64,000 bases of DNA, from contig OZ025248.1 of the NCBI GenBank assembly GCA_964019135.1, forward strand, positions 54,367,670 through 54,431,669. The letters run 5' to 3'. The notes beneath the pieces were generated by a model. That model saw only the letters and a program-made list of their open reading frames with translations. It was not told the DNA's origin and did no database searches. Positions 4,401-64,000 of this stretch are shown here, piece after piece. Within the stretch, counting starts at the first letter, position 1; the number at the start of each line of letters is the position of its first letter. The position numbers and the translations under genes were made by a program. This DNA comes from Arenicola marina. Its lineage: Eukaryota > Annelida > Polychaeta > Arenicolidae.

Positions 4401-7400
4401 TAGATAGATAATAGCTCTTGATGCTACTGTGGCTAGATAGATGATAGCCCTTGATGCTACTGTGGCTAGATAGATAATAGCTCTTGATGCTACTGTGGCT
4501 CGATAGATAATAGACATTGGTGCCACTGTGGCCAGATAGATAATACCCCTTGATGCTACTGTGGCTCGATAGATAATAGCCCTTGATGCTACTGTGGCTC
4601 GATAGATAATAGCCCTTGATGCTACTGTGGCTCGATAGATAATAGCCCTTGATGCAACTGTGGCTAGATAGATAATAGCCCTTGATGCTACTGTGGCTCG
4701 ATAGATAATACCACTTGATGCTACTGTGGCTCGATAGATAATAGCCCTTGATGCTACTGTGGCTAGATAGATAATAGCCCTTGATGCTACTGTGGCTCGA
4801 TAGATAATAGCCCTTGATGCTACTGTGGCTAGATAGATAATAGCCCTTGATGCTACTGTGGCTCGATAGATAATAGCCCTTGATGCTACTGTGGCTCGAT
4901 AGATAATAGCCCTTGATGCTACTGTGGCTAGATAGATAATAGCCCTTGATGCTACTGTGGCTCGCTAGATAATAGCCCTTGATGCTACTGTGGCTAGATA
5001 GATAATAGCCCTTGATGCTACTGTGGCTCGATAGATAATAGCCCTTGATGCTACTGTGGCTCGATAGATAATAGCCCTTGATGCTACTGTGGCTCGATAG
5101 ATAATAGCCCTTGATGCTACTGTGGCTCGATAGATAATAGCCCTTGATGCTACTGTGGCTCGATAGATAATAGCCCTTGATGCTACTGTGGCTCGATAGA
5201 TAATAGCCATTGATGCTACTGTGGCTAGATAGATAATAACCCTTGATGCTACTGTGGCTCGATAGATAATAGCCCTTGATGCTACTGTGGCTCGATAGAT
5301 AATAGCCCTTGATGCTACTGTGGCTAGATAGATAATAGCCCTTGATGCTACCGTGGCTCAATAGATTATAGCCCTTGATGCTACTGTGGCTAGATAGATA
5401 ATAGCCCTTGATGCTACTGTGGCTAGATAGATAATAGCCCTTGCTGCTACTGTGGCTCGATAGATAATAGCCCTTGATGCTACTGTGGCTCGATAGATAA
5501 TAGCCCTTGATGCTACTGTGGCTCGATAGATAATAGCCCTTGATGCTACTGTGGCTCGATAGATAATAGCCCTTGATGCTACTGTGGCTCGATAGATAAT
5601 AGCCCTTGATGCTACTGTGGCTCGATAGATAATAGCCCTTGATGCTACTGTGGCTAGATAGATAATAGCCCTTGATGCTACCGTGGCTCGATAGATTATA
5701 GCCCTTGATGCTACTGTGGCTAGATAGATAATAGCCCTTGATGCTACTGTGGCTAGATAGATAATAGCCCTTGCTGCTACTGTGGCTCGATAGATAATAG
5801 CCCTTGATGCTACTGTGGCTCGATAGATAATAGCCCTTGATGCTACTGTGGCTCGATAGATAATAACCCTTGATGCTACTGTGGCTCGATAGATAATAGC
5901 CCTTGATGCTACTGTGGCTCGATAGATAATAGCCCTTGATGCTACTGTGGCTCGATAGATAATAGCCCTTGATGCTACTGTGGCTCGATAGATAATAGCC
6001 ATTGATGCTACTGTGGCTAGATAGATAATAACCCTTGATGCTACTGTGGCTCGATAGATAATAGCCCTTGATGCTACTGTGGCTCGATAGATAATAGCCC
6101 TTGATGCTACTGTGGCTAGATAGATAATAGCCCTTGATGCTACCGTGGCTCGATAGATTATAGCCCTTGATGCTACTGTGGCTAGATAGATAATAGCCCT
6201 TGATGCTACTGTGGCTAGATAGATAATAGCCCTTGCTGCTACTGTGGCTCGATAGATAATAGCCCTTGATGCTACCGTGGCTCGATAGATAATAGCCCTT
6301 GATGCTACTGTGGCTCGATAGATAATAGCCCTTGATGCTACTGTGGCTCGATAGATAATAGCCCTTGATGCTACTGTGGCTCGATAGATAATAGCCCTTG
6401 ATGCTACTGTGGCTCGATAGATAATAGCCCTTGATGCTACTGTGGCTAGATAGATAATAGCCCTTGATGCTACCGTGGCTCGATAGATTATAGCCCTTGA
6501 TGCTACTGTGGCTAGATAGATAATAGCCCTTGATGCTACTGTGGCTAGATAGATAATAGCCCTTGCTGCTACTGTGGCTCGATAGATAATAGCCCTTGAT
6601 GCTACTGTGGCTCGATAGATAATAGCCCTTGATGCTACTGTGGCTCGATAGATAATAGCCCTTGATGCTACTGTGGCTCGATAGATAATAGCCCTTGATG
6701 CTACTGTGGCTCGATAGATAATAGCCCTTGATGCTACTGTGGCTCGATAGATAATAGCCATTGATGCTACTGTGGCTAGATAGATAATAACCCTTGATGC
6801 TACTGTGGCTCGATTGATAATAGCCCTTGATGCTACTGTGGCTCGATAGATAATAGCCCTTGATGCTACTGTGGCTAGATAGATAATAGCCCTTGATGCT
6901 ACCGTGGCTCGATAGATTATAGCCCTTGATGCTACTGTGGCTAGATAGATAATAGCCCTTGATGCTACTGTGGCTAGATAGATAATAGCCCTTGCTGCTA
7001 CTGTGGCTCGATAGATAATAGCCCTTGATGCTACTGTGGCTCGATAGATAATAGCCCTTGATGCTACTGTGGCTCGATAGATAATAGCCCTTGATGCTAC
7101 TGTGGCTCGATAGATAATAACCCTTGATGCTACTGTGGCTCGATATATAATAGCCCTTGATGCTACTGTGGCTCGATAGATAATAGCCCTTGATGCTACT
7201 GTGGCTAGATAGATAATAGCCCTTGATGCTACCGTGGCTCGATAGATTATAGCCCTTGATGCTACTGTGGCTAGATAGATAATAGCCCTTGATGCTACTG
7301 TGGCTCGATAGATAATAGCCCTTGATGCTACTGTGGCTCGATAGATAATAGCCCTTGATGCTACTGTGGCTCGATAGATAATAGCCCTTGATGCTACTGT

Positions 7401-8096
7401 GGCTCGATAGATAATAGCCCTTGATGCTACTGTGGCTCGATAGATAATAGCCCTTGATGCTACTGTGGCTCGATAGATAATAGCCATTGATGCTACTGTG
7501 GCTAGATAGATAATAACCCTTGATGCTACTGTGGCTCGATAGATAATAGCCCTTGATGCTACTGTGGCTCGATAGATAATAGCCCTTGATGCTACTGTGG
7601 CTAGATAGATAATAGCCCTTGATGCTACCGTGGCTCGATAGATTATAGCCCTTGATGCTACTGTGGCTAGATAGATAATAGCCCTTGATGCTACTGTGGC
7701 TAGATAGATAATAGCCCTTGCTGCTACTGTGGCTCGATAGATAATAGCCCTTGATGCTACCGTGGCTCGATAGATTATAGCCCTTGATGCTACTGTGGCT
7801 AGATAGATAATAGCCCTTGATGCTACTGTGGCTAGATAGATAATAGCCCTTGATGCTACTGTGGCTAGATAGATAATAGCCCTTGCTGCTACTGTGGCTC
7901 GATAGATAATAGCCCTTGATGCTACTGTGGCTCGATAGATAATAGCCCTTGATGCTACTGTGGCTCGATAGATAATAGCCCTTGATGCTACTGTGGCTCG
8001 ATAGATAATAGCCCTTGATGCTACTGTGGCTAGATAGATAATAGCCCTTGATGCTACTGTGGCTAGATAGATAATTGGCTTTGGCGCCACTATGGC
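1404..8096. repeat. 33-bp minisatellite, about 200 copies, GATA-motif rich
   Basis: This is a near-perfect tandem array of a 33-bp unit containing 'gatagataatagcccttgat' followed by 'gctactgtggctc' or 'gctactgtggcta'. Most units contain AGATAA, which fits the WGATAR consensus of GATA factors. Variant units (for example 'accgtggctcgatagatta', 'gccattgatgct', 'cccttgctgct' and 'gacattggtgcc') recur at regular distances, often 330 then 462 bp, showing a higher-order organisation. Because 33 is a multiple of three, two minus-strand frames stay open for up to about 1,190 codons. I regard those as by-products, since there is no start context, no exon signal and no non-repeat protein sequence. Confidence 0.95.
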
Positions 8097-11224: not shown

Positions 11225-14200
11225 TGGCGGATGTCCCCTCACCTTTCCTGGCTTAACGATAAGAGTAATCAGCTCAGTTGAAAATTTAGTACGTGGTAAC
11301 TCAAGCTGACTGAAAATGATATGTCAATTTTAGGCCAACACATTAATTCTGAGTGGTCTTAATTCAATTTTAATTTCATCTAAACGTGCGAAATTTACCA
11401 CGTATTGTCAGCATATCCACTTTTACCAATTCTAAGGTGATCAGTCCATATATATTTGGATAATGTATTTGGCATACGTACATGCCGATGTGTGCCACAT
11501 GGCAATTGCTTACGCCAACTCATAATAGGGTCACGTGGTCTATTCACGTTTATTGGCGATGCGTTCCGCCAATTACTGGCGAAGTGTTCCGCCAGTTAGT
11601 GGCGAAGTGTTCCGCCAGTTAGTGGCGAAGTGTTACGCCAGTTAGTGGCGAAGTGTTCCGCCACTTTTATTTAATTTATTTGACAAGTTGCTTGTCATGT
11701 AGTGTCTTTCTCACTCGGCAAATAAATTTGCCCTTTCCAATTCCATACATTGTGTTCTGTTTTCTTGCCAGGAAACAAGCTGCGGGCGAGCCAGCTTATC
11801 TTTACGAATTCGTAGCTAATAACATAAAAAACAATTCTGAAATTCAGAATTAAGTTTGTGTTCGCGAAGATGTTATTTAGCCCGTTAAGGAAACAAAACC
11901 CCCCTCCAGTACAGAAACAAGAATGGACGCTTCAACGTTGACGCGTCTAGCAACCCGCTGTTTACTGAAGTCAGCCAATGAGAGACCGGCTGCTGGCTGG
12001 CCGCAAGAAGTTCTACCCAGTCGGTCATTCGGACAACAGATGCTGACGAGGTTACCTCCTCCTCCCCACCGCCTCCTTTATAATAAGTTTTGCTTGCATT
12101 TCAGTTTTATCACTACTCGAGGAATTATTAAATTGATAAGTATAGTAGGATTTATACCATACAATTCTTCTATGTATGAACTTTCGTAATAAACTGACGT
12201 AGAATTATTTGATTAACAGATAACTTAACATTTCAGGAAATGGATGACCACTGTTCCTTATTTTTCTAAACCTCATTTGTAAATGCTATCATACCTTCGA
12301 TAACCCCAGCTTTCAACACAATAGAAAGCTACGTTACATATGAGAATTCCAGTGACTAGCCTAAAAGCGACCATACGAAGTTTTAATCAATATTATTTAA
12401 TCTCCAGACCAAGTATAAATCTTGAAATTTGTTCATTTTAATAGAAGTTTTCGCCAATTCTTTTTGGTTACTCCACTGAGGGATCGCGATTGGGAATAAA
12501 TCCCAATTATATATGTACCAAGGTATTCAAATTTGAAACTTAATGCATGTTATTGTTATATTTGTGAGTATGGCGGATGTCCCCTCACCTTTCCTGGCTT
12601 AACGATAAGAGTAATCAGCTCAGTTGAAAATTTAGTACGTGGTAACTCAAGCTGACAGAAAATGATATGTCAATTTTAGGCCAACACATTAATTCTGAGT
12701 GGTCTTAATTCAATTTTAATTTAGCTTTTACTTAAACGTGCGAAATTTACCACGTATTGTCAGCATATCCACTTTTACCAATTCTAAGGTGATCAGTCCA
12801 TATATATTTGGATAATGTATTTGGCATACGTACATGCCGATGTGTGCCACATGGCAATTGCTTACGCCAACTCATAATAGGGTCACGTGGTCTATTCACG
12901 TTTATTGGCGATGCGTTCCGCCAATTACTGGCGAAGTGTTCCGCCAGTTAGTGGCGAAGTGTTCCGCCAGTTAGTGCGAAGTGTTCCGCCACTTTTATTT
13001 AATTTATTTGACAATTTGCTTGTCATGTAGTGTCTTTCTCACTCGGCAAATAAATTTGCCCTTTCCAATTCCATACACTGTGTTCTGTTTTCTTGCCAGG
13101 AAACAAGCTGCGGGCGAGCCAGCTTATCTTTACGAATTCGTATCTAATAACATAAAAAACAATTCTGAAATTCAGAATTAAGTTTGTGTTCGCGAAGATG
13201 TTATTTAGCCCGTTAAGGAAACAAAACCCCCCTCCAGTACAGAAACAAGAATGGACGCTTCAACGTTGACGCGTCTAGCAACCCGCTGTTTACTGAAGTC
13301 AGCCAATGAGAGACCGGCTGCTGGCTGGCGGCAAGAAGTTCTACCCAGTCGGTCATTCGGACAACAGATGCTGACGAGGTTACCTCCTCCTCCCCACCGC
13401 CTCCTTTATAATAAGTTTTGCTTGCATTTCAGTTTTATCACTACTCGAGGAATTATTAAATTGATAAGTATAGTAGGATTTATACCATACAATTCTTCTA
13501 TGTATGAACTTTCGTAATAAACTGACGTAGAATTATTTGATTAACAGATAACTTAACATTTCAGGAAATGGATGACCACTGTTCCTTATTTTTCTAAACC
13601 TCATTTGTAAATGCTATCATACCTTCGATAACCCCAGCTTTCAACACAATAGAAAGCTACGTTACATATGAGAATTCCAGTGACTAGCCTAAAAGCGACC
13701 ATACGAAGTTTTAATCAATATTATTGAATCTCCAGACCAAGTATAAATCTTGAAATTTGTTCATTTTAATAGAAGTTTTCGCCAATTCTTTTTGGTTACT
13801 CCACTGAGGGATCGCGATTGGGAATAAATCCCAATTATATATGTACCAAGGTATTCAAATTTGAAACTTAATGCATGTTATTGTTATATTTGTGAGTATG
13901 GCGGATGTCCCCTCACCTTTCCTGGCTTAACGATAAGAGTAATCAGCTCAGTTGAAAATTTAGTACGTGGTAACTCAAGCTGACAGAAAATGATATGTCA
14001 ATTTTAGGCCAACACATTAATTCTGAGTGGTCTTAATTCAATTTTAATTTAGCTTTTACTTAAACGTGCGAAATTTACCACGTATTGTCAGCATATCCAC
14101 TTTTACCAATTCTAAGGTGATCAGTCCATATATATTTGGATAATGTATTTGGCATACGTACATGCCGATGTGTGCCACATGGCAATTGCTTACGCCAACT

Positions 14201-32802: not shown

Positions 32803-35800
32803 CTGGAACGTGACGTGGAACGTACTCACATACAGTCAGTCTTGTCATTGCTCGTTGCTCACATACAGTCAGTCTTGTCATTGCTCGTTGCTCACATACA
32901 GTCAATCTTGTCATTGCTCGTTGCTCACATACAGTCAGTCTTGTCATTGCTCGTTGCTCACATACAGTCAGTCTTGTCATTGTTCGTTGCTCACATACAG
33001 TCAGTCTTGTCATTGCTCGTTGCTCACATACAGTCAGTCTTGTCATTGCTCGTTGCTCACATACAGTCAGTCTTGTCATTTCTCGTTGCTCACATACAGT
33101 CAGTCTTGTCATTGCTCGTTGCTCACATACAGTCAGTCTTGTCATTGCTCGTTGCTCACATACAGTCAGTCTTGTCATTGCTCGTTGCCTACATACAGTC
33201 AGTCTTGTCATTGGTCGTTCCTTACATACAGTCAGTCTTGTCATTGCTCGTTGCTCACATACAGTCAGTCTTGTCATTGCTCGTTGCTCACATACAGTCA
33301 GTCTTGTCATTGCTCGTTGCTCACATACAGTCAGTCTTGTCATTGCTCGTTGCTTACATACAGTCAGTCTTGTCATTGCTCGTTGCTCACATACAGTCAG
33401 TCTTGTCATTGCTCGTTGCCTACATACAGTCAGTCTTGTCATTGCTCGTTCCTTACATACAGTCAGTCTTGTCATTGCTCGTTGCTCACATACAGTCAGT
33501 CTTGTCATTGCTCGTTGCTTACATACAGTCAGTCTTGTCATTGCTCGTTGCTCACATACAGTCAGTCTTGTCATTGCTCGTTGTTTACATACAGTCAGTC
33601 TTGTCATTGCTCGTTGCTCACATACAGTCAGTCTTGTCATTGCTCGTTGCTCACATACAGTCAGTCTTGTCATTGCTCGTTGCTCACATACAGTCTGTCT
33701 TGTCATTGCTCGTTGCTCACATACAGTCAGTCTTGTCATTGCTCGTTGCTCACATACAGTCAGTCTTGTCATTGCTCGTTGCTCACATACAGTCAGTCTT
33801 GTCATTGCTCGTTGCTCACATACAGTCAGTCTTGTCATTGCTCGTTGCTCACATACAGTCAGTCTTGTCATTGCTCGTTGCTCACATACAGTCAGTCTTG
33901 TCATTGCTCGTTGCTCACATACAACCTGTCTTGTCATTGCTCGTTGCTCACATACAGTCAGTCTTGTCATTGCTCGTTGCTCACATACAGTCAATCTTGT
34001 CATTGCTCGTTGCTTACATACAGTCAGTCTTGTCATTGCTCGTTGCTTACATACAGTCAATCTTGTCATTGCTCGTTGCTTACATACAACCTGTCTTGTC
34101 ATTGCTCGTTGCTTACATACAGTCAGTCTTGTCATTGCTCGTTGCTTACATACAGTCAGTCTTGTCATTGCTCGTTGCTCACATACAACCTGTCTTGTCA
34201 TTGCTCGTTGCTCACATACAGTCAGTCTTGTCATTGCTCGTTGCTCACATACAGTCAATCTTGTCATTGCTCGTTGCTTACATACAGTCAGTCTTGTCAT
34301 TGCTCGTTGCTTACATACAGTCAATCTTGTCATTGCTCGTTGCTCACATACAGTCAGTCTTGTCATTGCTCGTTGCTTACATACAGTCAGTCTTGTCATT
34401 GCTCGTTGCTCACATACAGTCAGTCTTGTCATTGCTCGTTGCTCACATACAGTCAGTCTTGTCATTGCTCGTTGCATACATACAGTCAGTCTTGTCATTG
34501 CTCGTTGCTCACATACATTCAGTCTTGTCATTGCTCGTTGCTTACATACAGTCAGTCTTGTCATTGCTCGTTGCTCACATACAGTCTCGTCATTGCTCGT
34601 TGCTTGCATACAGTCAGTCTTGTCATTGCTCGTTGCCTACATAGAGTCTGTCTTGTCATTGCTCGTTGCTCACATACAGTCAGTCTTGTCATTGCTCGTT
34701 GCTCACATACAGTCAGTCTTGTCATTGCTCGTTGCTCACATACTGTCAGTCTTGTCATTGCTCGTTGCTCACATACAGTCAGTCTTGTCATTGCTCGTTG
34801 CTCACATACTGTCAGTCTTGTCATTGTTCATTGCTAACATACAACGGGTTTTGTATATGTCCATATACAACCGGTATATTACCGGGGAAAACTTGTTAAG
34901 AAAAACCAATAACTGTCCTAGTCATAATGGAAGCATGTAGGTTCCAGTCATATTCTGTGAGTCAAGGAATCCTTTCCGCTAGAGATAGTTCGCAATATCC
35001 ATAAAGAAAGTCAAAACTTACCCGTAATGTCCTCTTTAAGCCTTGTAATTTCCTCTGGAAGCTGACTTCTTTACTATTTCGTATTTTTAGTTTTTCCGTT
35101 TTCGTTAAAGTGCTTTTCCGCTGTTGCTTAACATTGACGCCGTCAAAGTCAAGGTCGGCGCGACGCAGGTTCTGGAACTCAGCGACTAGTTCATCGGTTG
35201 ACTGAGATAAATCTGGAAAAGTAACATACTATGGTTACGGGTGGCTACCAGTGAAAACCACGCGTCTGGGTCTGAATGGTTGGTTGTTTGTACATTCAGG
35301 ACGCTTTAACCACTTCTGGTCATATCACGTCAACGGGAAAAGGGAGGGAGAGTGGAGCCATGTCCCCGAGGTAACTCCCTACTGTTTGCGAAGAAGGACA
35401 AGGGATCTTTATCCTGCGACCGCACAGACATGGCCACAACAGGGCTCGAACCAGGATCTCAATGGAAGTGTACCGATGAAGTTCCTACGGACTGTTTGGC
35501 GTGGAGAAGCCATACCTACCCTCCCTACTGCTGGACGGACTTGGACTCGCCCTCGGGGTGGGAGGACTGTTTGGCGTGGAGAAGCCATACCTACCCTCCC
35601 TACTGCTGGACGGACTTGGACTCGCCCTCGGGGTGGGAGGACTGTTTGGCGTGGAGAAGCCATACCTACCCTCCCTACTGCTGGACGGACTTGGACTCGC
35701 CCTCGGGGTGGGAGGACTGTTTGGCGTGGAGAAGCCATACCTACCCTCCCTACTGCTGGACGGACTTGGACTCGCCCTCGGGGTGGGAGGACTGTTTGGC

Positions 35801-38800
35801 GTGGAGAAGCCATACCTACCCTCCCTACTGCTGGACGGACTTGGACTCGCCCTCGGGGTGGGAGGACTGTTTGGCGTGGAGAAGCCATACCTACCCTCCC
35901 TACTGCTGGACGGACTTGGACTCGCCCTCGGGGTGGGAGGACTGTTTGGCGTGGAGAAGCCATACCTACCCTCCCTACTGCTGGACGGACTTGGACTCGC
36001 CCTCGGGGTGGGAGGACTGTTTGGCGTGGAGAAGCCGGACACCATGGATGTCGTGTCACTCTCCTCGTCGCTCTCGTCATAGTAAGCGTGGACGTGCACG
36101 TCGGGTTTGGGCGACGCGTCTGTGAATTAATAAACATAATATGACGGCAGTGCGGACATTCACCTCCTTAAATCGGCACTCGCTAGTTATAGATGTGGTG
36201 TTCACTAGCTTGCAACAGAAACAGGTAGATCTAGTAGAACGACTCTAGAAAACCAAACCTGTGCGTTCTAAGGGGCATGTAGTGTTAGAGGACGAATACC
36301 ATTATTTGTATTGAGATGCCCACTGTATAACGAGTTAAGAAAACAATATATAGATGCGAAATACTTGGAGCATATACATTTCGAAACCTTTCGGGAGCTA
36401 ACGCAAACCGCGGTAAAACATGAACTACGAAATTTAGCTATATATATTCTGAAAGCAAAAGGGCCACATTCCTTGTACATAAACAACGATGCCAACACTA
36501 AGTGACTGATTTTATGTATGTTTTCTTTTTGTACTTTAGGCCTGTGGACGTCAAATACAATTAAATTATAATTACACAAATAGTTATTATTACCCCCATT
36601 CACCGCCTAGGTGGTCAGGGGCCAACCGAATGGTCTGACCATCCTTATGATATGGATGAGTTATGGTTGTGGTATGCTCGATTGTCCCCCATGCGGAGAT
36701 GTCCCCCCCCCCCTGTATCTATCATAATGGCACCGCACGAACACGTGGAGCAGGGGTCTCAATATCATGTATTATATGTAAGGGGGACAACCGCACATAG
36801 GGGGGACACTTCCGCATGTCACAATAATACTGATCTGCATGGTAGAGGGTGAAAACAAAAAAGCCGCATCGATATCGGAATTTTGATACGTAATACACAA
36901 GAAAGACACACAAGAGAAAAGTGTCTTTGGCAACAAGCCGCGTTCTGTATTGTCCGCTATAAGTTGCACAGGTCGGGCATGTGCAGGTTGAAACCGCCCC
37001 AGCGTTCACAGCTCACCTTTATCCGGTTTCGTGAAGCCCGACGTTGTGGCTAGCGAGCTGGTATCATAGAAAATGGCCGCGATGCCCATCTTGTTCATCC
37101 ATCTAGGAAATTAAAGGAAATAATGATATATTATATACACGGTCCTCGACGGTTCCAAAAATGTACACTAAGGTAAAGGTTTTGAATGGAAATGATGAAT
37201 ATGTATGTAGGTTCTTCTTTTAATAGTAAACATCTAGTTTTTTTTCAATTCGTGGTGCTTATAGTTATACAAAGTACATCTATTCACACCTCTTTACTTA
37301 CTTGCTCATGTCGTCCTGCCTCTCAGAGGCGAAGTAGAACGTGAACCCGCTGTGATAAGCCTTAAAAGCACTGAAAATACATCAAACCGACACGATGATA
37401 AAAACATCTAAAAACTGAAAATACTTGACACTATTACTATTTACCGAGCGTTAGAGGAGGAAGTATAGCATTACATATAAGATGATGCGATGCAGTCACG
37501 TTAAGTTGCAGGGTACGGTTTATTCAAACATCTGCGCAAAACTACACAAGGGCTTGTACACATGTACTTGATAGAGGAAGCTGCTACATGTCGCTAAGTC
37601 TAACCACTTACAATTTTTTGGTCTTGATCTCCGGTGCAGGCGAGATCTTAAAGGCCGGAAGATGTAAGACCCCTTGAGCCTTCATCTCCTGCACAAACAA
37701 CAACCAGTCAAACGCATGTTTTGTAATCTCTGATCGCCATCCCAATGTAGCATAAAAAAATCCCATTTTGCCTGCAAACTTCACAAAAGTCGCAATAAAT
37801 GAGTTACTTCAGCCGTTAATCACATAGGTGCCGAATCGATAAAGGTAAAATAAGGACATGTTAAATTACTGAAGACGCCGCTATCAGGAGACACTGCCTC
37901 GTTAGTTAAAGTGTCATTTATAGGCAAACCTTTGAAGTTCACTTGGCCATGACTCCAGCATATCAACAGCAGAACCTCCCTAATCCCAGGTTAACCGAAA
38001 TCATGCCAATATAGGAACTTTTTTGTGCGTCTTATCCCGTACTCGAACCTTGAAAATCTTAAAAATCTGTAACCCGAATATATTGCTCCGTCCAAGGCAC
38101 ATTCCGTCTATAGAGGTATCACTGTATATGTCTATACATAATTAGCGAGTGTGTGCATCTGGTTTGAGATTATTATAGGTTTGAGGCTATTGTAGGCGGT
38201 ACTGGTCTGCAACAGACACGATAGAGGTATCACAGATCTCACCTCTGGGTCCTTGAAGTAATACAGGTTCTTCTCCTTGAGGACGAACCAGCGCTTCGCC
38301 CAGTGTTTGTGGATCAGTCCCCCTCCCTCTCGCTTCTTGTAGAGCCACCCCTGACAGTCCCCGCCCCCCAGGTCCTTGCACGAGACCCGACGGGCTGCTC
38401 CTGTAATTACAAACAACAAAATAAGATGTCACTGGCATGCTGACCGGAAGTAATACACTGACCGGAAGTGATACACTGACAGGAAGTGACAGACTGACGG
38501 GAAGTGATACACTGACCGGAAGTAATACACTGACCGGAAGTGATACACTGATCGGATGTGGATCAAAATTGAGAAAATGACTTTGTGGAGTTCAGTGCGT
38601 CCATTAAAATTCAATATCTAGGCGGTAGATGGTCCCTCAGAATGGAGTATTTACTTATCCGTCATATGAAAGACTATCCGGCAGGGATGAATAGGTGGCT
38701 CCGTCCTTTTAGAGGCCGTACTTTTGTCGTCAGTCTGGCATTGCTCAACGAAAAGCCCACTTTTTGCTTGGGGGAAGGAGGTGGGGGGGGGGGGGCGGGG

Positions 38801-41800
38801 TACCAGTGTCCTGGTCGTGCCAATAATACTTCTTTCATTGACCCAGGCTCCGATTCCCTTCATTGCGTCTCATACAAGAAAGCACTGATTGTGTTTTGAC
38901 TTTTTTTCAGTCCAGTTCGGGTTCTTTTGTCATACTATTAGCATGTCCCAGGTGGAGATGTTTGATTGTGTTTTTGTCTGAGTCTACTTCACCAATAGCA
39001 GTGGTATCCTGAGGCACACCATGAAGCTCGAGAGCATAAAGTGGTGGGTCAGTGAACTTCAATTTTTAATTCAACGACCTGGCTGCATTGGGCCAGGAAG
39101 GACTTTCCGAACGAAGTGCTGAAACTCGAACATTCGGGTTCAAACAGGACGCCCTACGGTAAATTTAGATCAACAGGGGCGGATCCAGGATTGTTAAAAG
39201 AGGTCCACTGGAACTTGCGACCGGGGGGGAGGGGTCTAAAAAATGCGACCAGGGGTTCTAGCAAATTGACGCGTGGGGGAGGGGGGGGGGGCGGTCCACG
39301 CCTCAGATGGCATGAACTTTGCTTTGGAAAACGGCATTCTTCCTCAAAAACTGGTGGGGGACACCGGTACCCCCCAGTACTAAGAGCAGACTATTCTATC
39401 TATCCGTCTGAAATGTTAAAACGGAATTGGACTCGCCCTCGGGGTGGGAGGACTGTTTGGCGTGGAGAATTCATACCTACCCTCCCTACTGTTGGACGGA
39501 CTTGGACTGGATGGCGGACAGTTAACGCAAACGTTTCGAACTACGTCTGGCGCACAAGTTCGAGTTACTTGGCATACTACCACGGTCGCTGTAGCGTCAC
39601 AACAATTATGGGCAATGCGACATCTTTGAACCCGGAGAAGACATATACGTGAATATTACACAACGGATCGGAGTGAAGGTTGCACGGCAACTGTGTACAG
39701 GCCGTATTGTTCCTACGGCTCAGTGATATTGAACTGTGACCCTCTTTCACTGGTAACAGGGATGCTGGCATCGGGTTGGTCCTGGCAGATGTAGATAGAT
39801 AATTGTAACGTGATTTGCATATCATTAATAGGGTTTGCCCCCACTCCCCCCCCCCTCCCAAGACCGTAAGCCGTTGCATCATACATAGTGGGCATTATTC
39901 TCCATTAAATAAAGGGAAAGTTAGGCTTAAAGCTATTCAAACAGTTGTTACCCGCCACTTAAGGCACATTTGCATAGTACACTAAAATGAAAGATTAGCA
40001 TTCACGTTTAACAAAACAGCAACACTGGCTTAAAAATGTTATGGTAAACCTGGCCGAAAAGGCATTCTTTCTCTTGGCAGCTGACTGTAAGTTGGAAGCT
40101 ATGTGAACTACGTCACAGCTTTGTGTGTAATTCACCGATTTATTGCACCATTTTAGGGATGCTGAACATACTACATTTTCGTGATAACAAATCATTCTTG
40201 CATTATTTAGACCTTAAACAGATAATAATTTTAGATCTTGGGAAGATTTGGGCGGGAAACAACGAATAGCTATAAAAAGTCTTCAAACCAAACACCTACA
40301 GCATATGATAGATCGAAACAAACAGAAGTGTATGCAGGAAGACCCCTAATTATCGCGTTGGAACCCGATAAACCACGATATCAGCGTCCCTCCCTACATT
40401 TTGTGCAATGAACTCGCCCAATCTAATACCCACTCGGGATTAACACGCAATGGACCCGTCAAGGGGTTAAATGGGAAGTAAAGTCGGCCATTTTATCGGC
40501 AGTCACAAGAGGGTGAAAAATACACCTGCATAATTATATTTATAAATATATATATAACAAATATTTCAGTGGATCTTTATATTATACTTAGGAAAGTAAA
40601 ACCATATTTTATCACCAATATTATAATTACCCACTTTTTAAATGTACGTTTTATGATATATAAGATATATATCATTCTGTTAATAATTTCACCCATTCTT
40701 TTGTGTTTTTGCATTTTGGGCGTCTTACAGACCTAACGCTGTATCATAGTAAAGTATTGACCGCTGGTTATGATTAGATTTCTGTATCATGTAAAAGAAG
40801 TAACGAATTGCATTGGCATAATATATGACACAATGTTTGTAAGTGGCAAGGCGCTTTCTGCCACTAGCTGTGATGGTCACGTCAAGTCTGTGCATAAAGC
40901 GGTCTAAAACACGAGTACACTGATTGATTGACACTCAAGAGAGCAGAGACCACTCACCTAACCTCCTCATGGCATGTTTCTTTCGTAGGAGGGAGGACGG
41001 GGACTGGGTGGGCGACTCCTTGGGTTCCCGCGTATTGGCCACCTTCTGGGGCACCCCGCCCACGATGTTCACTGTGTAGCTCTGGTTAGAACTGCAATTA
41101 ATCAAGGACACCGCTGTAGATCTTCGTCAGTGTGCGCGAGAGAGTCAGGTAAATATCATTTAAAAACATACACATAAGTTACATGCAACGGGGACACGAA
41201 TAATTAAGCAGCACAGCTTCACATGGAGACCTCGTGTCATTTTCGTTTTGTCATGTTAGGGTCATATAATATAATATAGGGCAGTTTTTGCCCTTTGTAT
41301 CAAGCGTCACGAAAAAAAATAGCTACCTGAAGTCACAGATCAGAAGCAGAACTTGCGTTAGGAAGTTACCTTCTTGATGATGTCAATAGATACCCCCACC
41401 CTATATAACATCTTGCTATTTCTCCGCTATGCGTACAAATTAAGGGAAAAACTGTTTCAAAATGTTACCTTATTTACTTGATGTTATTTGTATATACATA
41501 TATTTGAACTTTGAGGCTGTGAGCCTACAGTATGTAGTGACCACTTGGCGCTGGCGATACGCTGGCGTGCACGATACAAGAGGCACAATACAGACCACTA
41601 ATTGTAACCGGACCCCGTTGGAGTGACGAGGGGGTAAACAAAGCGATTTGCTAACACTATCAAATGGTCCAACGCAAGGTGAAGGTCAAACCTGGCCCGA
41701 GTCGAGACGAAAAGTTTATAAATTAATAGGAATCTCGTTTACACGTGATCGCGCACGAGATTCTCAATAGTTGTTAGATCGTGGTCTATGTCGTGTATTG

Positions 41801-50800: not shown

Positions 50801-53800
50801 TCACTTAGTATCCTATAGTCACTGACATCTCACTTAGTATCCTAAAGTGACTGACATCTCACTTAGTATCCTATAGTCACTGACATATCACTTAGTATCC
50901 TATAGTCACTGACATCTCACTTAGTATCCTATGGTGACTGACATCTCACTTAGTATCCTATAGTCACTGACATCTCACTTAGCATCCTATGGTGACTGAC
51001 ATCTCACTTGGTATCCTATAGTCACTGACATCTCACTTAGTATCCTATGGTGACTGACATATCACTTAGTATCCTATAGTCACTAACATCTCACTTAGTA
51101 TCCTATGGTGACTGACATCTCACTTAGTATCCTATAGTCACTAACATCTCACTTAGTATCTTATGGTGACTGACATCTCACTTAGTATCCTATAGTCACT
51201 GACATCTCACTTAGTATCCTATGGTGACTGACATCTCACTTGGTATCCTATAGTCACTAACATCTCACTTAGTATCCTATGGTGACTGGCATCACACTTG
51301 GTATCCTATAGTCACTGACATCTCACTTAGTATCCTATGGTGACTAACATATCACTTAGTATCCTATAGTCACTAACATCTCACTTAGTATCCTATGGTG
51401 ACTGACATCTCACTTAGTATCCTATAGTCACTGACATCTCACTTAGTATCCTATAGTCACTGACATCTCACTTAGTATCCTATGGTGACTGACATCTCAC
51501 TTAGTATCCTATAGTCACTGACATCTCACTTAGTATCCTATGGTGACTGACATCTCACTTGTTATCCTATAGTCACTAACATCTCACTTAGTATCCTATG
51601 GTGACTGGCATCACACTTAGTATCCTATAGTCACTGACATCTCACTTAGTATCCTATGGTGACTGACATCTCACTTAGTATCCTATAGTCACTGACATCT
51701 CACTTAGTATCCTATGGTGACTGACATCTCACTTGGTATCCTATAGTCACTGACATCTCACTTAGTATCATATGGTGACTGACATCTCACTTAGTATCCT
51801 ATAGTCACTGACATCTCACTTAGTATCCTATGGTGACTGACATCTCACTTGGTATCCTATAGTCACTGACATCTCACTTAGTATCCTATGGTGACTGACA
51901 TCTCACTTAGTATCCTATAGTCACTGACATCTCACTTAGTATCCTATGGTGACTGACATCTCACTTGGTATCCTATAGTCACTGACATCTCACTTAGTAT
52001 CCTATGGTGACTGACATCTCACTTAGTATCCTATAGTCACTGACATCTCACTTAGTATCCTATGGTGACTGACATCTCACTTGGTATCCTATAGTCACTG
52101 ACATCTCACTTAGTATCCTATGGTGACTGACATATCACTTAGTATCCTATAGTCACTAACATCTCACTTAGTATCCTATGGTGACTGACATCTCACTTTG
52201 TATCCTATAGTCACTGACATCTCACTTAGTATCCTATGGTGACTGGCATCACACTTAGTATCCTATAGTCACTGACATCTCACTTAGTATCCTATGGTGA
52301 CTGACATATCACTTAGTATCCTATAGTCACTAACATCTCATATAGTATCCTATGGTGCCTGACATCTCACTTAGTATCCTATAGTCACTGACATCTCACT
52401 TAGTATCCTATGGTGACTGGCATCACACTTAGTATCCTATAGTCACTGACGTTACTCGTAGTATCCTATAGCAAGTGACGTCACGCGCGGGTTGAGCTGG
52501 GTGGATCTCTGGCTTACAGAACGTGTTCCTTATAGCACGATATGAACGAGACGAGAGCGAATCTCAATGCATAAGCCGCTCGGTGAGTTGCATCCGGCAT
52601 ACAAGAGATCATGGCCACAGATAGGATTCCAGGACACACCCCCACCCCGACACCAGTCCTCACCTAAACCCCGACAACAGCCCTCACCCCCACCCCGACA
52701 GCAACCCTCACCTCCACCCCGACACCAGCATTCACCTAAACCCCCACAGCAGCCCTTACCCCCACCCCGACAGCAGCCAGCACCCCCACCCCGACACTAG
52801 CCCTCACCTAAACCCCGACACCAGCCCTCACCCCCGCCCCGACACCAGCACTCACCTAAACCCCGACACCAGGCCTCACCCCCACCCCGACAGCAGCCAT
52901 CACCCCCACCCCGACACCAGCCCTCACCCCCACCCGATACCAGCCCTCACCCCTCCTCGAAGAATGGACTACAGGTTTCGGAGTGGGGGTGAGGGTCGGA
53001 GTCGAGGTCTCGGGGTGGGGGTGGAGGTGAGTGCCGGAGACGAGGTCTCGGGGTGGGGGTGGGGGTGGGGGTGGGGGTGAGGGTAGGGGTGAGGGCCAGA
53101 GTCGAGGTTTCGGGGTGGGGTGGGGGTGGTGGAAAGTGCCGGAGTCCATTTCTCGGGGTGGGGGTGGGGGTGGAGGTAAGGGCCGGAGTCGAGGTCTCGG
53201 GGTGGGGGTGAGGGCTGGAGTCGAGGTCTCGGGGTGGGGGTGAGGGCCGGAGTTGAAGTCTCTGGGTGGGGGTGAGGATGAGGGCCGGAGTCGAGGTCTC
53301 AGGGTAGGGGTGAGAGCCGAAGTTGAGGTCTCGGGGTGGGGGTAAAGGTGAGGGCTGGAGTCAAAGTCTCGGGGTGAGTTGGGGGTGAGGGACTGAGTCG
53401 AGGTATCGGGGTGGTGGTGATGGCCGGTGTCGAGGTCTCGGGGTGGGAATGAGGGCCGGAGTCGAGATCTCCGGGTGGGTGTGAGGGCCGGAGTCGAGGT
53501 CTCGGGGTGGGGGTGAGGGCCGGAGTCGAGATCTCCAGGTGGGGGTGAGAGCCGGAGTCGAGGTCTCGGGGTGAGGGTGAGGGTGAAGGCCGGAGTCGAG
53601 ATCTCCGGGTGGGGGTGAGGGCCGGAGTCGAGGTATCGGGGTGGGGGTGGGGGTGAGGGCCGGTGTCGAGGTATCGGGGTGGGGGTGGGGGTGAGGGCCG
53701 GTGTCGAGGTATCGGGGTGGGGGTGGGGGTGAGGGCCGGTGTCGAGGTATCGGGGTGGGGGTGGGGGTGAGGGCCGGTGTCGAGGTATCGGGGTGGGGGT

Positions 53801-56800
53801 GGGGGTGAGGGCCGGAGTCGCGTTAGACCTACGTTCGTTACTTCAGGACGCTTTAACCAATTCTTGTCATATCGCGTCAATGGGAGCAGGAAGGGAAGAG
53901 CGGAGCCATGTCCTCGGGGTAACCCCCGGCTTCTGCGGTCACCGGGTGGGGGTGAGGGCCGGTGTCGCGGTCTCGGGGTGGGGATGTGGGTGAGGGGTCA
54001 CCGGGTTGGGGTGAGGCGTGAGGGTGTCAAAGATCTCGAAAGAAACGTAATACCCACAGTATGTAAGGCCAGATACAGGAAGCTGTCACCGGAGTAGTAG
54101 ACTACACTCATATAGTATGAGATGGGACAGCAAAAAAAATCAGTTAATACCTTCCGGGTTCCTCACCTGAAAGGGCTCAGATTGACCAGTTAAGATATGT
54201 GATGTTAGACCAACGGCGACTGCGCTAAACAAACACAGGAACTGCGGTCTGGCCGACAAAATGTTGTCAGCTCATAACCTGAACCATAAATCATAAGCCT
54301 AAGAGAAGACATACTTATACAAACACACGTCCATGTTTGAACCATAGCGACATATCGACGCTTTGGTGGCCTTCGATGTGACCGTGTGACCCTGGGGGCC
54401 CCGGAGTATGGTGGACGGTGGGGTGGAGGGTGGCGTGGCGGGGAGGGGCGGGTGGCGGTGGACGGTGGGGGGGGGGAGGCTACTGCCCCGGGGGTTATAA
54501 TGGATTGCCTGCCCAAGACCCTACGGTATAGTTCGGGGTAAACACATTTACTTGTGTTTCCTTGGATACAAGATCGGGTGGAACGTTGTACAACCCTTCA
54601 AGGTTAGGTTGCTACGCCCAAGCGGTAGCGCGCTTCCTAATAAGCGAACTGCTATTCGTCACGTCTTGTTAAATCATTTCCGCCGATACCATCTGCAGTA
54701 AACCTTTTTGTTTTTTTTAACACTTGTTATCGCCGTGGGATATTTGTCCCTAGCAAGTCGTAACAACTATAAGTGCTAAAAAGCAGTCGGTGATTACCCT
54801 TAAAAATATGCCTGTAGAGGTGCTAAGTAAGTGTTGCTACCTGGAAAGTACCGTTACGGATAATCTATCCCTGGACGAGGAAATAAATACTCCCATCGGG
54901 AACGCAGCTACCTTTTGGTAGCTTGAACAAACGTGCGTGGCAAAATTCTAAAATGGCAGTAAAACGTGGACTACATATTGTGGCCAAGGAAGAAATTGAA
55001 CAATTTCCATTTTCGTTGCTGCGAAACATTTTAGGCATACCTTGGCAAGACAAGGTGGCGAATGCTGAAGTGTTAGCCAGGGCGCAAATCCCGCGAAGAA
55101 AATCTTATTATTTGAACGAAAACAAAGCTGCATATCCACCGTCTTTCACAGACGTACAGATTGGCGCCAACCAACCAAATCCGGGGTTCCGACGCAAGTC
55201 TGGTAACAACATTACATGACTTTCCATGACAGTCACTCTAAGGATCAAGGTCATTTACAGGTAAAGGTCATGAAAAACCATTATAATTTCAGCAAAATGG
55301 CATCTTCCGCTTCTCATAAATAAGAAAGGCGAGTACCACTGTACCGCTAACACTTGTTTTTGAAAATTTCCATGGCCATAATCTCAGACATGTAATGTGT
55401 AGTCGTAAAACCGGGGGAAGTAGGATGAAATCCCATGGACTTTCCATCACCCTATTGAATTTCCATGACTACTTGAAAGATAGCAACAATATTCCATGAC
55501 TTTCCATGATGACCGTGTGAACCCTGCAAAGTGAAGTCGACTCCATAGAGAAGTACATGATATCATATTGACGGAGATGACCACAAGACGGCGCCACGGG
55601 TCTTGGTAACTAACCTGTCCGGTCGCGTTTCGTTGGCCTTCACCTCTTGTCGCAGGAGGTCAACACTGGTCTTCAGCCCCGAACTTCCCTTCAGCCGCTC
55701 TCGCTCCAGCCGCTCCTGTAACGGAACGTGTAGTAGCCAATCACAAAGAAGCTCTCGCCGTGTTGTCGCGCCGGTATGAAAGGACGCGTCCGATTGGCCA
55801 GACGCCGCGACATCACTTTATGTTTCTGCCAATGGCAGGAGGAGGTACATTTAAAGCAATACTTACATGCTCCATCTTACATTTTTTACATTTTAGAATC
55901 AAGACTAAAAGTATCTAAAAATTATGATGCATATATGTTTTATATATCTGAGTCTGTAAAACTACAATTTCAACATAAAACTGCGTGGTTTATTTATATC
56001 GCGCGCGGACGTGATAGCGAGCAGCGGTTGACATCACACACAAAATACCGAACAGCAAACAGGCGCGCAGGGATATAAAGCCGGCTATCAAATTGCTTCA
56101 CTCCGGATAGCTCACAGTATTTCAGGGTTTAAATTCAAGCCAGAATATACTTATTTGACATACGGAAGAGGTTGGTAATACAACAAATTACAGAATATAT
56201 TGCTTTAAGCTATAATAGAAAATTTGAGGCTGGATTTGAGGACAATAAAATCATCTAGATATCAAAGTAGCTACATATATTCTCAGTTCCTTCTTTTAAC
56301 ACACTGAGCGAATTTGATCTCAATAATTTCACAAATATGAATAGGTCATGCAAATTTGCTAGAAATGCCTCAGTGTTAAAGGGTTTTAACAGGCATCATA
56401 GAAAGCCGCAGACGAAAATAAGATCAATTTCATGACATGCGCTAAAAAGTCAGTCACACAAATACAGTGAGCGTGCACCATATGAAATCATCGCCAAAAC
56501 AGATGACCAAACGTACTGAAGCAATCACAACAAAACAGTTCGTCTTAACCAGGCAAATACTAAGTAGTTCGTACGGGCAAACAGTAACCATCACAGTTCG
56601 TCAAGGTCACATGGGCAAACAGTAACCATCACAGTTCGTCAAGGTCACACGGGCAAACAGTAACCATCACAGTTCGTCAAGGTCTCAGTCAAACAGAAAC
56701 CATAGCAGTTCGTCAAGGTCAAACGGGCAAATAATAACTATTACAGTTCGTCAAGGTCACACAGGCAAACAGTAACCACCCCAGTTCGTCAAGGTCAAAC

Positions 56801-59800
56801 GGGCAAATAATAACCATTACAGTTCGTCAAGGTCAAACCGGCCAACAGTAACCATCACAGTTCGTCAAATAATAACCATAACAGTTCGTCAAGGTCACAC
56901 AGGCAAACAGTAACCATCATAGTTCGTCACGATCAAACGGGCAAATGATAACGATTACAGTTCATCAAAGTCACACAGGCAAACAGTAACCATCACAGTT
57001 CGTCAAGATCAAACGGGCAAATAATAACTATCACACTTCGTCAAGGTCACACGGGCAAACAGTAACCATAACAGCTCGTCAAGGTCAAACGGGCAAATAA
57101 AAACCATTACAGTTCGTCAAGGTCACACAGGCAAACAATAATCATTGCAGGTCGTCAAGGTCAAACGGGCAAATAATAACCACTACAGTTCGTCAAGGTC
57201 ACAGCCAAACAGTAACCATCACAGTTCGTCTAAGGTCAAACGGGCAAATAATAACCATCACAGTTCGTCAAGGTCACACAGGCAAACATTAACCATTACA
57301 GTTCGTCAAGGTCAAACGAGCAAATAATAACCATCACAGTTCGTCAAGGTCACACAGGCAAACAGTTACCATCACAGCTCGTCAAGGTCAAACGGGCAAA
57401 TAAAAACCATTACAGTTGATCAAGGTCACACAGGCAAACAGTAACCATCAGAGTTCGTCATGGTCAAATGGGCAAATAATAACCATTACATTTCGTCAAG
57501 GTCAAACCGGCAAACAGTAACCATCACAGTTCGTCAAGGTCATACAGGTAGAAAACTGAATTAAATATGTGCCTTATACTGACATCAAGTTAAATGTATA
57601 AGTCCTTGTGTCATGATGCTTTATATTATAAAGCATTCGACTCGTTGTGCTGGGGTAAGAAGGCTCGGACACCGTGCATACTAAAACAACAACTCATTCT
57701 GCCTTAAAGATTTATGATACACTTTTTTGTTTTCCTAGACTTAAAAAATATTCATTATTAATCATTGGAAGAGCATTATATATACACCTAGAAAATAATA
57801 TATGTCACTATGCTCGTTAAAGAGCTGCAGATATGTCAATAAGAGGCCCCTTGATCAGTTTTCGCCATCTTTTACTATATTTTACTAAAGTAAAACAACC
57901 TGAGCATCATTTCCAGCTTCACGCTTCAGCTTCACTCTAACCATATATGTCGTATTTCATATATACAGTACTATGCAATATATTCAATATTCTTCACAAC
58001 GGAATATATATAGATGTATATATAAACAGTTGGTGATTGTATTCTTAAGCTATATTCTGCCACATACCGAAATAAAGTTACATGCGATAAATCATATACA
58101 GCATCCATTAACGGTTTTCTGTTTTAAATTATTTTCATTCTTTCACATCGTCGCATGCATCCCCAATATGGTTAACATTAACATCTCCCTTTCTTATAAC
58201 GGAAAACACAAAAAGCCCCACACCAAATATATACAATACAATCTTGTTTAGGGTCTTAACTAAAAAAACTTTTAATGAAAATTAAACACACACTTTCCCA
58301 GCATTACAGACGCATGCTACTGCCACGGAAACAGGCTCTTTTTGCCATCAACAACATAATGCAAACAGTTTTAACCCTAGAGCAAACCCAAGGACGGATC
58401 ACTGGTAAGAAACACAACAAAACAAGAAGCAAAACATCTATTCATACAACTTACCTCACTGTCGGAATCTGAAAGCTGTACAGATTTGGAAATGAAAGCC
58501 ATTTGTAGTCTTGGGGATAATTAACACATTGTTAGTTGGATAACGACATATATGGCAATGTGTATATGGCTATATGCAATAAAGACGTGTGAAAAATTTA
58601 CTTGATCCAAGGTTAATCGACGTGATGTAAGATTTACGGAAAATATCAATACTAATACATCTATATGCTTCAAGGCACGAGCGTTAGTAAACAGAAACAG
58701 AGAGGATATGTAAGATATAAGATGTAAGAATATAAGCCGATCCTGCGGCCGTGTGATAACTCTGCACCAAAAGGTAATTGTTCACACCTGCGCGCGCATA
58801 GTATAGCACGATAGAGGTAGTCATAAAGCGCGCCCAAATCGCTCATGTGCGATACGAAAAAGTGGTAAAATACCTGCACCCATCAAGAAAGAACGGAGTG
58901 CAGGTTGCAGAGCGTTGCATCCACACAATAACACATATGTCGCACTTACTTAAGGCTAGCAAAACACGCATTGTATGTCTGGTTACCTTCCTAACATGGC
59001 AGAAGCTATACCGAAGCCACCCTTTCAAAGCCACCTGATTACCGAAAGAGGCTAGCTGGAACCATGTCAACAAGAAATTCCTTTGAAAGTGTATTCATTG
59101 GGCATTAGAGTGCAAATCAAGCGCACATAGTCTCAGACGTTTCCCACGGGGTTTCGTTGTCAAGCCAGACAGCCACCACATGCAAAGAATGCGACTACAA
59201 GACGGGCATTATTACAGCGCCGAGAACGGGAGTTTTCAGGTGAGTTATCGCATATCTATATACTGAAAGCCACAGCATGGTTATGTATAGCCAAATAGCA
59301 TGTGAACGTTAACGATTGGTTGGTTGTACATTCAGGCAGCATTAACCAACTTCTGGTCATATCGCGTCAAATGGAAAAGGAAGGGAATAGTGGAGCCATG
59401 TCCCGGGGGTAACCCCCTACACTTGGCGAAGAAGGACATTGGATCTTTATCTTGCGGCTACACAGACATATGGCCAAAGCGGGACGCAAAACCACCGATC
59501 CACGTGCCGTTAGGCTCTCAGGGGGCCAGAGCACTCAAGGTGAGCGCTCTAACCCGCTGAGCTATAGAGGCGGCCCCGAACGTTATACCGCCGTGCAGGG
59601 GATTAAGAGGGCTGGCTGGGGGCAATGGTTGAACATACCTGGTCAGCCATCTCCCCCCTGCGTTGGGAGTTGATCCTGGTCACCCGGAGCAGGGTCGGAG
59701 AGCCGTGCTCGCCGCCAGCCACCTCCATCACCGCCGCCTCACTCCCCTTCCGCTTCCGGTTGGCACCTCCGTCTTCCGAGGATACGATCTGGAGGCTGGA

Positions 59801-61290: not shown

Positions 61291-62540
61291 CTGCCGAACA
61301 AGGTCAAGGTCAAGGTCATGTGTGAGCGCGTCTACCAATGCAGTTATTCTGATTGGTAGATCAGTGGGTGGGTCCCAATGTCCCAGAGCGCCTTAAAATT
61401 ATGGGACATCCAAACAATAATGAGACATTAATTAAAATGCAATATGGCGTAGTCCGTTCACTATATATTAGCAATGAGTCACCATGTCCCCTCACAGCTC
61501 AAGGATATTTTTGCGCGACAAATGACGCAGGACGCGTACCTATCACAATCGCTGCTAATGACCGAATCGCCGTGAGAATGGAGGAAGGTTTTTGTTGGAT
61601 GTTGAATAACATTGCTCTTGATACCACTCGATCATCACACAAACTGATGACGAGGACCACACAAGACCGGGGCGAGTGGATAAATGCTCTCATCTGTCGC
61701 TTGATAGACTAACCCGCTGCTGCCGATTTCAGGAACTATCCTGGAATTACGTCCAATTCAAAGCTGCACATCGCTGGTGTGGGACACGTTTGGCCTTCAG
61801 GCTGCACGAGGGTGGACGCCAACGCCTTCCCACCGGATAACCCCGAGGAATATCAGCACTACAGACTGGGCCAGAACCACGGCCGGTCGCCAACAACAGT
61901 CTGTCTATCTGTCACTGAACGTCTAACAACTGAACAGTGCGCCCTGTTTCAATCAGTCCTCACACCGTCGTCTTCCTGGAGCCCACACAGCCACACGTGA
62001 CCGAATCACGCCCGTCACGACAGCCCGCTTCACGCCGTATATGCACATCTAGATGCAATACACTTAGGAATCAATTTCCGATAGTGGCGTCCTGACAGAA
62101 GCTGTCTCCCGTGAACCAGAGTATTCAAACTGAGTGAAGGGTAGATAGGTCTAATACCACAGAGCGATGCAACCAAACAACAAGAGCCAGTGACGACTAA
62201 AACCAGGGACTGTAGAAATGTCATATGTCGGCCGATGAGGAGTACCCCGGAGGAGTAATGTACCAGAGCCTCGGGCCACATGGGACGTTCTGGAAAACAA
62301 TGTTTCGGCGTTTCGTACTGAATGCGAAGGGTCACCGCCTCGGATCTCCACCCCCCCCCCCTCCACCGCCCCCCTTTCCTCCCCCGTGGGCGTGGATTGC
62401 TCGGTGTCAATTGTGTCTGGGGCCCAGAAATACTGCACACTGACACGACTGATAACTACAGTCCGCAAAAGCTCAATCTGCATGACGCTATACCACGTCG
62501 GGAGGAGGTGTGTGGGACGAGGTGTGCGCCGCATGACAGG
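61291..62540. other. No supported exon
   Basis: Open frames at 61353-61712 (plus, 119 codons) and elsewhere are unrecognised. A C-rich patch lies at 62349-62385. If the CNK gene continues upstream, its next exon should be beyond this region or unrecognised in it. Confidence 0.4.
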
Positions 62541-62544
62541 ATGC

Positions 62545-63492
62545 AGGCGTGCGCCGAATGGCACGACACTGGCGTGCGCCGAATGGCACGACACAGGCGT
62601 GCGCCGAATGGCACGACACTGGCGTGCACCGAATGACACGACATGGGCGTGCGCCGAATGGCACGACACTGGCGTGCGCCGAATGGCACGACACTGGCGT
62701 GCCCCGAATGGCACGACACTGGCGTGCGCCGAATGGCACGACACAGGCGTGCGCCGAATGGCACGACACTGGCGTGCACCGAATGACACGACATGGGCGT
62801 GCGCCGAATAACGCCACAGGCGTGCGTCGAATGACACGTCACAGGCGTGCGCCAAATGGCACGACACAGGCGTGCGCCGAGTGGCACGAGAAAGGCGTGC
62901 GCCGAATGGCACGACACAGGCGTGCGCCGAATGACACGACACAGGCGTGGGCCGAAGGCAAATACTCAGGCGTGCGCCGAAAGGCACCTCACAGGCGTGC
63001 ACCGAATGGCACGACACAGGCCTGCGCCGAATGGCACGACACAGGCATGTGCCGAATGGCACGACACAGGCGTGCGCCGAAGGCAAATACACAGGCGTGC
63101 GCCGAAAGGCAATACACAGGCGTGCGCCGAATGGCACGACACACGCGTACGCCGAATGGCACGACACAGGCGTGCGCCGAATGGCACGACACAGGCGTGC
63201 GCCGAATGGCACGACACAGGCGTGCGCCAAAAGGCAATACACAGGCGTGCGCCGAAAGGCAATACACAGGCGTGCGCCGAATGGCACGACACAAGCGTGC
63301 GCCGAATGGCACGACACAGGCGTGCGCCGAATGGCACGACACAGGCGTGCGCCGAATGGCACGACACAGGCGTGCGCCAAAAGGCAATACACAGGCGTGC
63401 GCCGAATGGCACGACACAGGCGTGCGCCGAATGGCACGACACAGGCGTGCGCCGAAGGGCAATACACAGGCGTGCGCCGAATGGCACGACAC
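62545..63492. repeat. 25-bp minisatellite, about 38 copies
   Basis: Units read 'gcgtgcgccgaatggcacga' plus 'cacag', with variants 'aaggcaatacacagg' and 'cactg'. Units are CpG-rich. The many overlapping frames on both strands (up to 438 codons) are repeat read-through. Confidence 0.93.
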
Positions 63493-63547
63493 CCAACAGG
63501 TCACGATGTGCCAACCCTGGCACCTGCATCTGACACTGTATGGCACG

Positions 63548-64000
63548 TAGGGATGTATTGGCCCACATTAAGATGTTCCATCCAACCCCATTTCATTCTG
63601 CCCGGGGATGTACTGGCCCACATTAAGATGTTCCATCCAACCCCATTTCATTCTCCCCGGGGATGTACTGACCCACATTAAGATGTTCCATCCAACCCCA
63701 TTTCATTCTGCCCGGGGATGTACTGGCCCACATTAAGATGTTCCATCCAACCCCATTTCATTCTGCCCGGGATGTACTGGCCCACATTAAGATGTTCCAT
63801 CCAACCCCATTTCATTCTGCCCGGGATATACTGACCCACATTAAGATGTTCCATCCAACCCCATTTCATCCTGCCCGGGATGTACTGGCCTACATTAAGA
63901 TGTTCCATCCAACCCCATTTCATTCTGCCCGGGGGGTACTGGCCCACATTAAGATGTTCCATCCAACCCCATTTCATTCTGCCCGGGGATGTACTGACCC
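63548..64000. repeat. 54-55-bp minisatellite, at least 8 copies, runs off the window
   Basis: Units contain 'gatgtactggcccacattaa' and 'gatgttccatccaacccca' plus 'tttcattctgcccggg'. The period is 55 bp, with 54-bp units where a G is missing. The array continues past the right edge, so its full length is unknown. Confidence 0.93.

Follow-up and report, generated by a model that had tools for sequence, protein, structure and literature searches.

The minisatellite at the end of exon 2 of the human IFI6 gene consists of 12-bp units, a length that is divisible by three. This repeat of IFI6 (also 6-16 or G1P3) was reportedly described by Turri et al. in 1995. According to PMC4526556, its units are used as splice donors and three mRNAs result. 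In human CBS, a 31-bp variable number tandem repeat (VNTR) at exon 13/intron 13 is written c.1444_1467+7(16_21) (PMC2630376), a notation that we read as 24 bases of exon followed by 7 of intron, with the exon ending in one unit and the others being intronic. The copy number of this VNTR differs between alleles and its units carry substitutions (PMC2630376); more units are reported, second-hand, to reduce enzyme activity (PMC5188458). In human duplicated genes, minisatellites located at exon-intron boundaries have been described with alternative splicing and novel introns (PMC2812944). Here we describe a minisatellite that appears to cross an exon end in a CNK scaffold gene of the annelid Arenicola marina. 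The window, i.e. the whole stretch of DNA analysed, comprises 64,000 nucleotides of contig OZ025248.1 (positions 54,367,670 to 54,431,669 of the forward strand), and positions below are those of the window. The features that carry the argument are as follows.

35489 to 36036, minus strand: minisatellite of seven identical 75-bp units (36036-35512) and a 23-bp partial unit (35511-35489)
35970 to 36119, minus strand: predicted exon after the PH exons when it ends at the unit-1 donor; 150 nt, with phase 1 at both ends, acceptor ttaattcacag; 75 nt longer with each further unit, down to 35520
35514 to 35969, minus strand: seven donors AGG/GTAGGT (the slash marks the exon end), with GT at 35969, 35894, 35819, 35744, 35669, 35594 and 35519; score 3.58 each
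35510 to 35965, minus strand: seven second donors TAG/GTATGG, out of frame, with GT at 35965, 35890, 35815, 35740, 35665, 35590 and 35515; score 2.94 each
35022 to 35212, minus strand: next CNK exon 3' of the array, starting in phase 1, predicted from splice sites and frame

Tandem Repeats Finder called 35489-36036 with a period of 75, 7.3 copies, 100% matches and 0% indels. An exact search placed the seven full units at 36036-35962 through 35586-35512, with zero differences across 525 bases. A first-pass annotation of this DNA had described seven near-identical 75-bp units in a CNK gene, with a splice donor inside each. The units are present and go beyond the claimed similarity, being identical, and AGG/GTAGGT is found in all seven full units. 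Each unit combines 67 nt from the end of the exon with the first 8 nt of the intron, and the second donor lies 4 nt downstream of AGG/GTAGGT in every unit.

Measured from position 36119, where the exon begins, the seven donors give exon lengths of 150, 225, 300, 375, 450, 525 and 600 nt, all of them multiples of three. Exon length, unit length and donor position share a single phase, so that any AGG/GTAGGT donor is in frame; all seven are in phase 1 and 25 residues are gained per extra unit. Translated splice models with 0, 1, 2 and 7 units each ran in frame into the next exon (35212-35022), and skipping of the exon (the 0-unit model) was likewise frame-preserving. With intron retention the frame hits a TAG immediately past the array, and use of the second donor yields GRFISVNR followed by a stop (translated for units 1 and 7). 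The proposed frame neutrality of the array is therefore conditional: it holds for any of the seven AGG/GTAGGT donors and is lost at the out-of-frame second donor of each unit. The donor of the last unit, singled out in the first-pass annotation as the phase-correct one, is not special, since all seven are phase-correct. That the exon carries seven units was an assumption; if splicing uses the first donor, the exon measures 150 nt and the remaining units are intronic. We rejected the open reading frame as coding evidence because five of the six frames are open across the array.

We scored the 79 GT sites between 36119 and 35214 using a donor matrix for human genes. Seven sites scored 3.58, seven scored 2.94 and the next best only 0.14. 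As only the unit donors score well among these sites, the donor of this exon very probably lies within the array. Six further donors mapped in the gene score 2.93 to 7.07, five of them exceeding the array donors, and by this score the array donors are on the weak side for the CNK gene. RNA structure as a donor selector showed no preference: the predicted fold of the unit (-23.5 kcal/mol) had a z of -1.00, matched or bettered by 33 of 200 shuffled sequences, and that of the unit dimer a z of -1.55 (17 of 200).

The reading that we favour, with modest assurance, is that the array is mostly intronic, that the unit-1 donor (150-nt exon) is dominant with longer in-frame forms as minor products, and that the array arose by tandem duplication across the exon end. 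The array would have been founded when a 75-bp segment, made up of the last 67 bases of the CNK exon and the first 8 bases of the intron, was duplicated in tandem, after which the units may have been expanded or homogenised. The spliceosome would now face seven equal 5' splice sites, and whichever AGG/GTAGGT donor is used, the protein would stay in frame and contain between one and seven copies of a 25-residue unit rich in Pro and Ser. The donor nearest the acceptor would be used most, and the bulk of the array would be left in the intron. Such dominance of the first donor is expected by analogy with IFI6 and CBS. At 150 nt, the predicted unit-1 exon falls within the range of the six other mapped exons (69-191 nt).

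Several points weigh against this reading. Predicted accessibility is similar at all seven donors, and no local factor favours the first. The donor matrix is human and the host is an annelid. On the gene's strand, a stretch of ~0.9 kb is open (60551-59642), which suggests that the CNK gene can carry long exons and that a 600-nt exon is possible. Finally, the far end of the array is cut or rearranged, because the 23-bp partial unit is followed by unrelated sequence, and the array is thus not a simple clean duplication.

As to the allelic copy-number variation envisaged in the first-pass annotation, a search of the assembly (867 Mb, 762 contigs) returned the array and one solo unit only, with no further copy of the array in this one assembly.

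39421 to 39508, minus strand: solo copy of the unit, within the intron that precedes the first PH exon; identical at 84 of 88 bases; it includes a unit-to-unit junction and GGGTAGGT

The sequence GGGTAGGT is present once per full unit and eight times in total on the minus strand of the window, the eighth occurrence, at 39482, being that of the solo copy. Given zero differences across 525 bases in the array and four across 88 in the solo copy, we infer that the spread of the units now seen postdates the separation of the solo copy.

In the view of the first-pass annotation that splicing could tune the number of repeats, several donors would be used at comparable rates, giving an isoform ladder with 1-7 units after the PH domain. 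We regard this as unlikely, albeit as a serious contender. The donors are equal, lie in equal context and are all in frame; their similar accessibility fits such a ladder, and the units of IFI6 do serve as alternative donors (PMC4526556). However, the out-of-frame donor 4 nt away in every unit would be expected to generate faulty products, and the CBS numbering (PMC2630376) ends the exon in one unit and leaves the others intronic.

It is doubtful that the last full unit always supplies the end of the exon, in which case the protein would always have seven units and the array would be a simple coding repeat. The intron is shortest with the seventh donor, which is in phase (307 nt, versus 757 nt with the first donor), and with the ~0.9 kb open stretch elsewhere in the gene, length alone is no exclusion. 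Nevertheless, six equal upstream donors would have to be ignored, and the exon would measure 600 nt versus the 69-191 nt of the six others mapped nearby.

We consider it very improbable that an error of assembly accounts for the exact identity of the units or for their number. Complete identity is unusual, being seen in one of the window's 27 arrays while the other 26 have 59-95% matches, but 99% arrays exist elsewhere in the genome (at the fetched loci L014 and L024). Moreover, the array is short (548 bp) compared with many arrays of greater length that were assembled on this contig, and the diverged solo copy holds a unit-to-unit junction, so adjacent units existed.

Although intron gain by tandem duplication is on record (PMC4974935 and others) and novel introns from exon-intron boundary repeats are described in PMC2812944, there is next to no probability here that the units act as small or nested introns, each spliced from the donor of one unit to an acceptor in a subsequent unit, because none of the unit's nine AG dinucleotides would preserve the frame if spliced to the unit donor.

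The mostly intronic array that we favour lies in a region rich in tandem repeats. The window contains 27 arrays that do not overlap (minimum period 10, minimum four copies) and has a tandem-repeat coverage of 38.8%. The array itself is far beyond chance, yet arrays are very common in the window, and as 39% of the window is tandem repeat, an array across a donor needs no special cause. By rough arithmetic (27 founding units of ~40 bp, seven mapped donors, 64 kb), ~0.1 donor-crossing array is expected per window; one such array is therefore unsurprising genome-wide and others should exist. In eight 5-kb places at round positions the coverage was 0.6 to 100% (mean 53%). We also measured it around copies of a dispersed repeat that lies close to the array.

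35277 to 35453, minus strand: dispersed repeat resembling a short interspersed nuclear element, in the intron 3' of the array; at least 41 matches including the window (best 40 of 4398 candidates scored)

At 29 loci of ~3.2 kb around such copies the coverage was 0 to 51% (mean 14%). The loci upstream of the window had 46% (L003), 41% (L005), 99% (L006) and only 5% (L004). Two features of the array were rejected as marks of rarity. A donor in every unit is not rare in itself, since two or more donor-like sites are found in two of the 27 window arrays on the gene's strand and in five on either strand; the uncommon part is the position at the exon end. A unit length divisible by three is not special either, as 11 of the 27 arrays qualify.

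Three other repeat regions of the window may be recorded here. The 33-bp array at 1405-8075 (~202 copies) has an open frame of 2122 residues on the minus strand, which is probably a by-product of the 33-bp unit length. Near-identical open frames at 11881-12189 and 13209-13517 lie 1328 bp apart, with 23-bp arrays near ~11.6, 12.9 and 14.3 kb, which suggests a larger tandem duplication around 11881-13517. The array at 52637-52951 on the gene's strand (period 72) holds nine donor-like sites, with no evidence of an exon there.

The gene that carries the array is a CNK gene, apparently single-copy. This identification, already made in the first-pass annotation, is borne out by SAM and CRIC domains upstream and by a PH domain closest to IPCEF1. 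SAM was found upstream of the window (Pfam SAM_1, 1.1e-06) in one frame of locus L004, and CRIC (PF10534, above cut-off) in the same frame of that locus. CRIC had a single genome match at E ≤ 0.001, with one stop within the matched stretch. The exons upstream of the array are the following.

37017 to 38400, minus strand: four PH-domain exons (38400-38243, 37688-37612, 37370-37302 and 37102-37017); spliced model Pfam PH 6.5e-15
40958 to 41091, minus strand: predicted CNK exon before the PH exons, from splice sites and frame

Against the PDB, IPCEF1 was the best of 29 sequences for the spliced PH model (2.1e-23), and the unspliced PH region gave no match. In the predicted gene model the repeats follow the four PH exons, in agreement with the placement after the PH domain that had been proposed. 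By this position, the array exon may correspond to the vertebrate CNKSR2 tail, as the first-pass annotation had proposed. A PDZ domain was not found in L003, L004 or window positions 54001-64000, read unspliced. IPCEF1 is grouped with CNK1-3 in PMC11257983, and the A. marina gene resembles this family (CNK1-3, IPCEF1) in its SAM, CRIC and PH domains. A literature search with CNK and tandem-repeat words gave no CNK term among the matches listed, a result that says little and does not show absence from print. We know of no CNK with an exon-boundary minisatellite.

Two smaller repeats lie further upstream on the gene's strand. A degenerate repeat at 59969-60062 (period 36, 2.6 copies, 86% matches) is inside the ~0.9 kb open stretch noted above, which is Pro-rich and probably a coding exon. 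A perfect hexanucleotide repeat at 61245-61271 (4.5 copies) encodes an Asp-Asn run in an open frame. Outside the nuclear locus, the mitochondrial contig C762 (loci L046 and L047) has the order nad3, nad2, cox1, cox2, read by eye, with TGA inside genes; the cox3 match begins ~1.3 kb past the end of the cox1 match. We presume that this order resembles that of annelids.

Which donor is used would affect the protein. A one-unit exon has six Ser/Thr-Pro sites, to which each extra unit adds five, so that the seven-unit exon has 36. A 14-3-3 pattern, to be taken as a lead only, is absent from the one-unit form and gained once per extra unit (RYGFSTP). The junction residues GRY are translated intron bases. 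If more than one donor is used, intron bases become protein (GRY), and possible phosphorylation-site numbers change without a frameshift. If use is confined to the first donor, the locus shows a gene tolerating growth of a minisatellite through an exon end. Speculatively, and at low probability, the array could be a valence dial read by splicing on a RAS-pathway scaffold, several donors being used and the units adding Ser/Thr-Pro sites and, by way of GRY at the junctions, RYGFSTP; with minisatellites so abundant in this genome, many genes may carry such donor ladders. Seven identical in-frame donors in the same local sequence offer a clean natural test of 5' splice site ranking by position only. 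The A. marina genome, with 39% tandem repeat in the window, is a good place to gauge how often arrays cross exon ends.

Compared with the known systems, the predicted CNK array is like IFI6 in that repeat units carry donors at an exon end. It differs in its 75-bp unit, its seven copies and its invertebrate host, and its donors are predicted only. With CBS it shares a unit that spans the exon end and the intron start. In CBS, however, 31 is not divisible by three and extra units would shift the frame, whereas 75 keeps it, and the CBS units have substitutions, whereas the CNK units are identical. Unlike the boundary minisatellites of human duplicated genes, for which PMC2812944 describes novel introns, the CNK array supplies donors only and has no frame-keeping AG. 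The kind of arrangement is thus already known from IFI6 and CBS; what is new to us is its occurrence in this gene and this animal, and the pairing of seven identical donors with a 75-bp unit that is frame-neutral.
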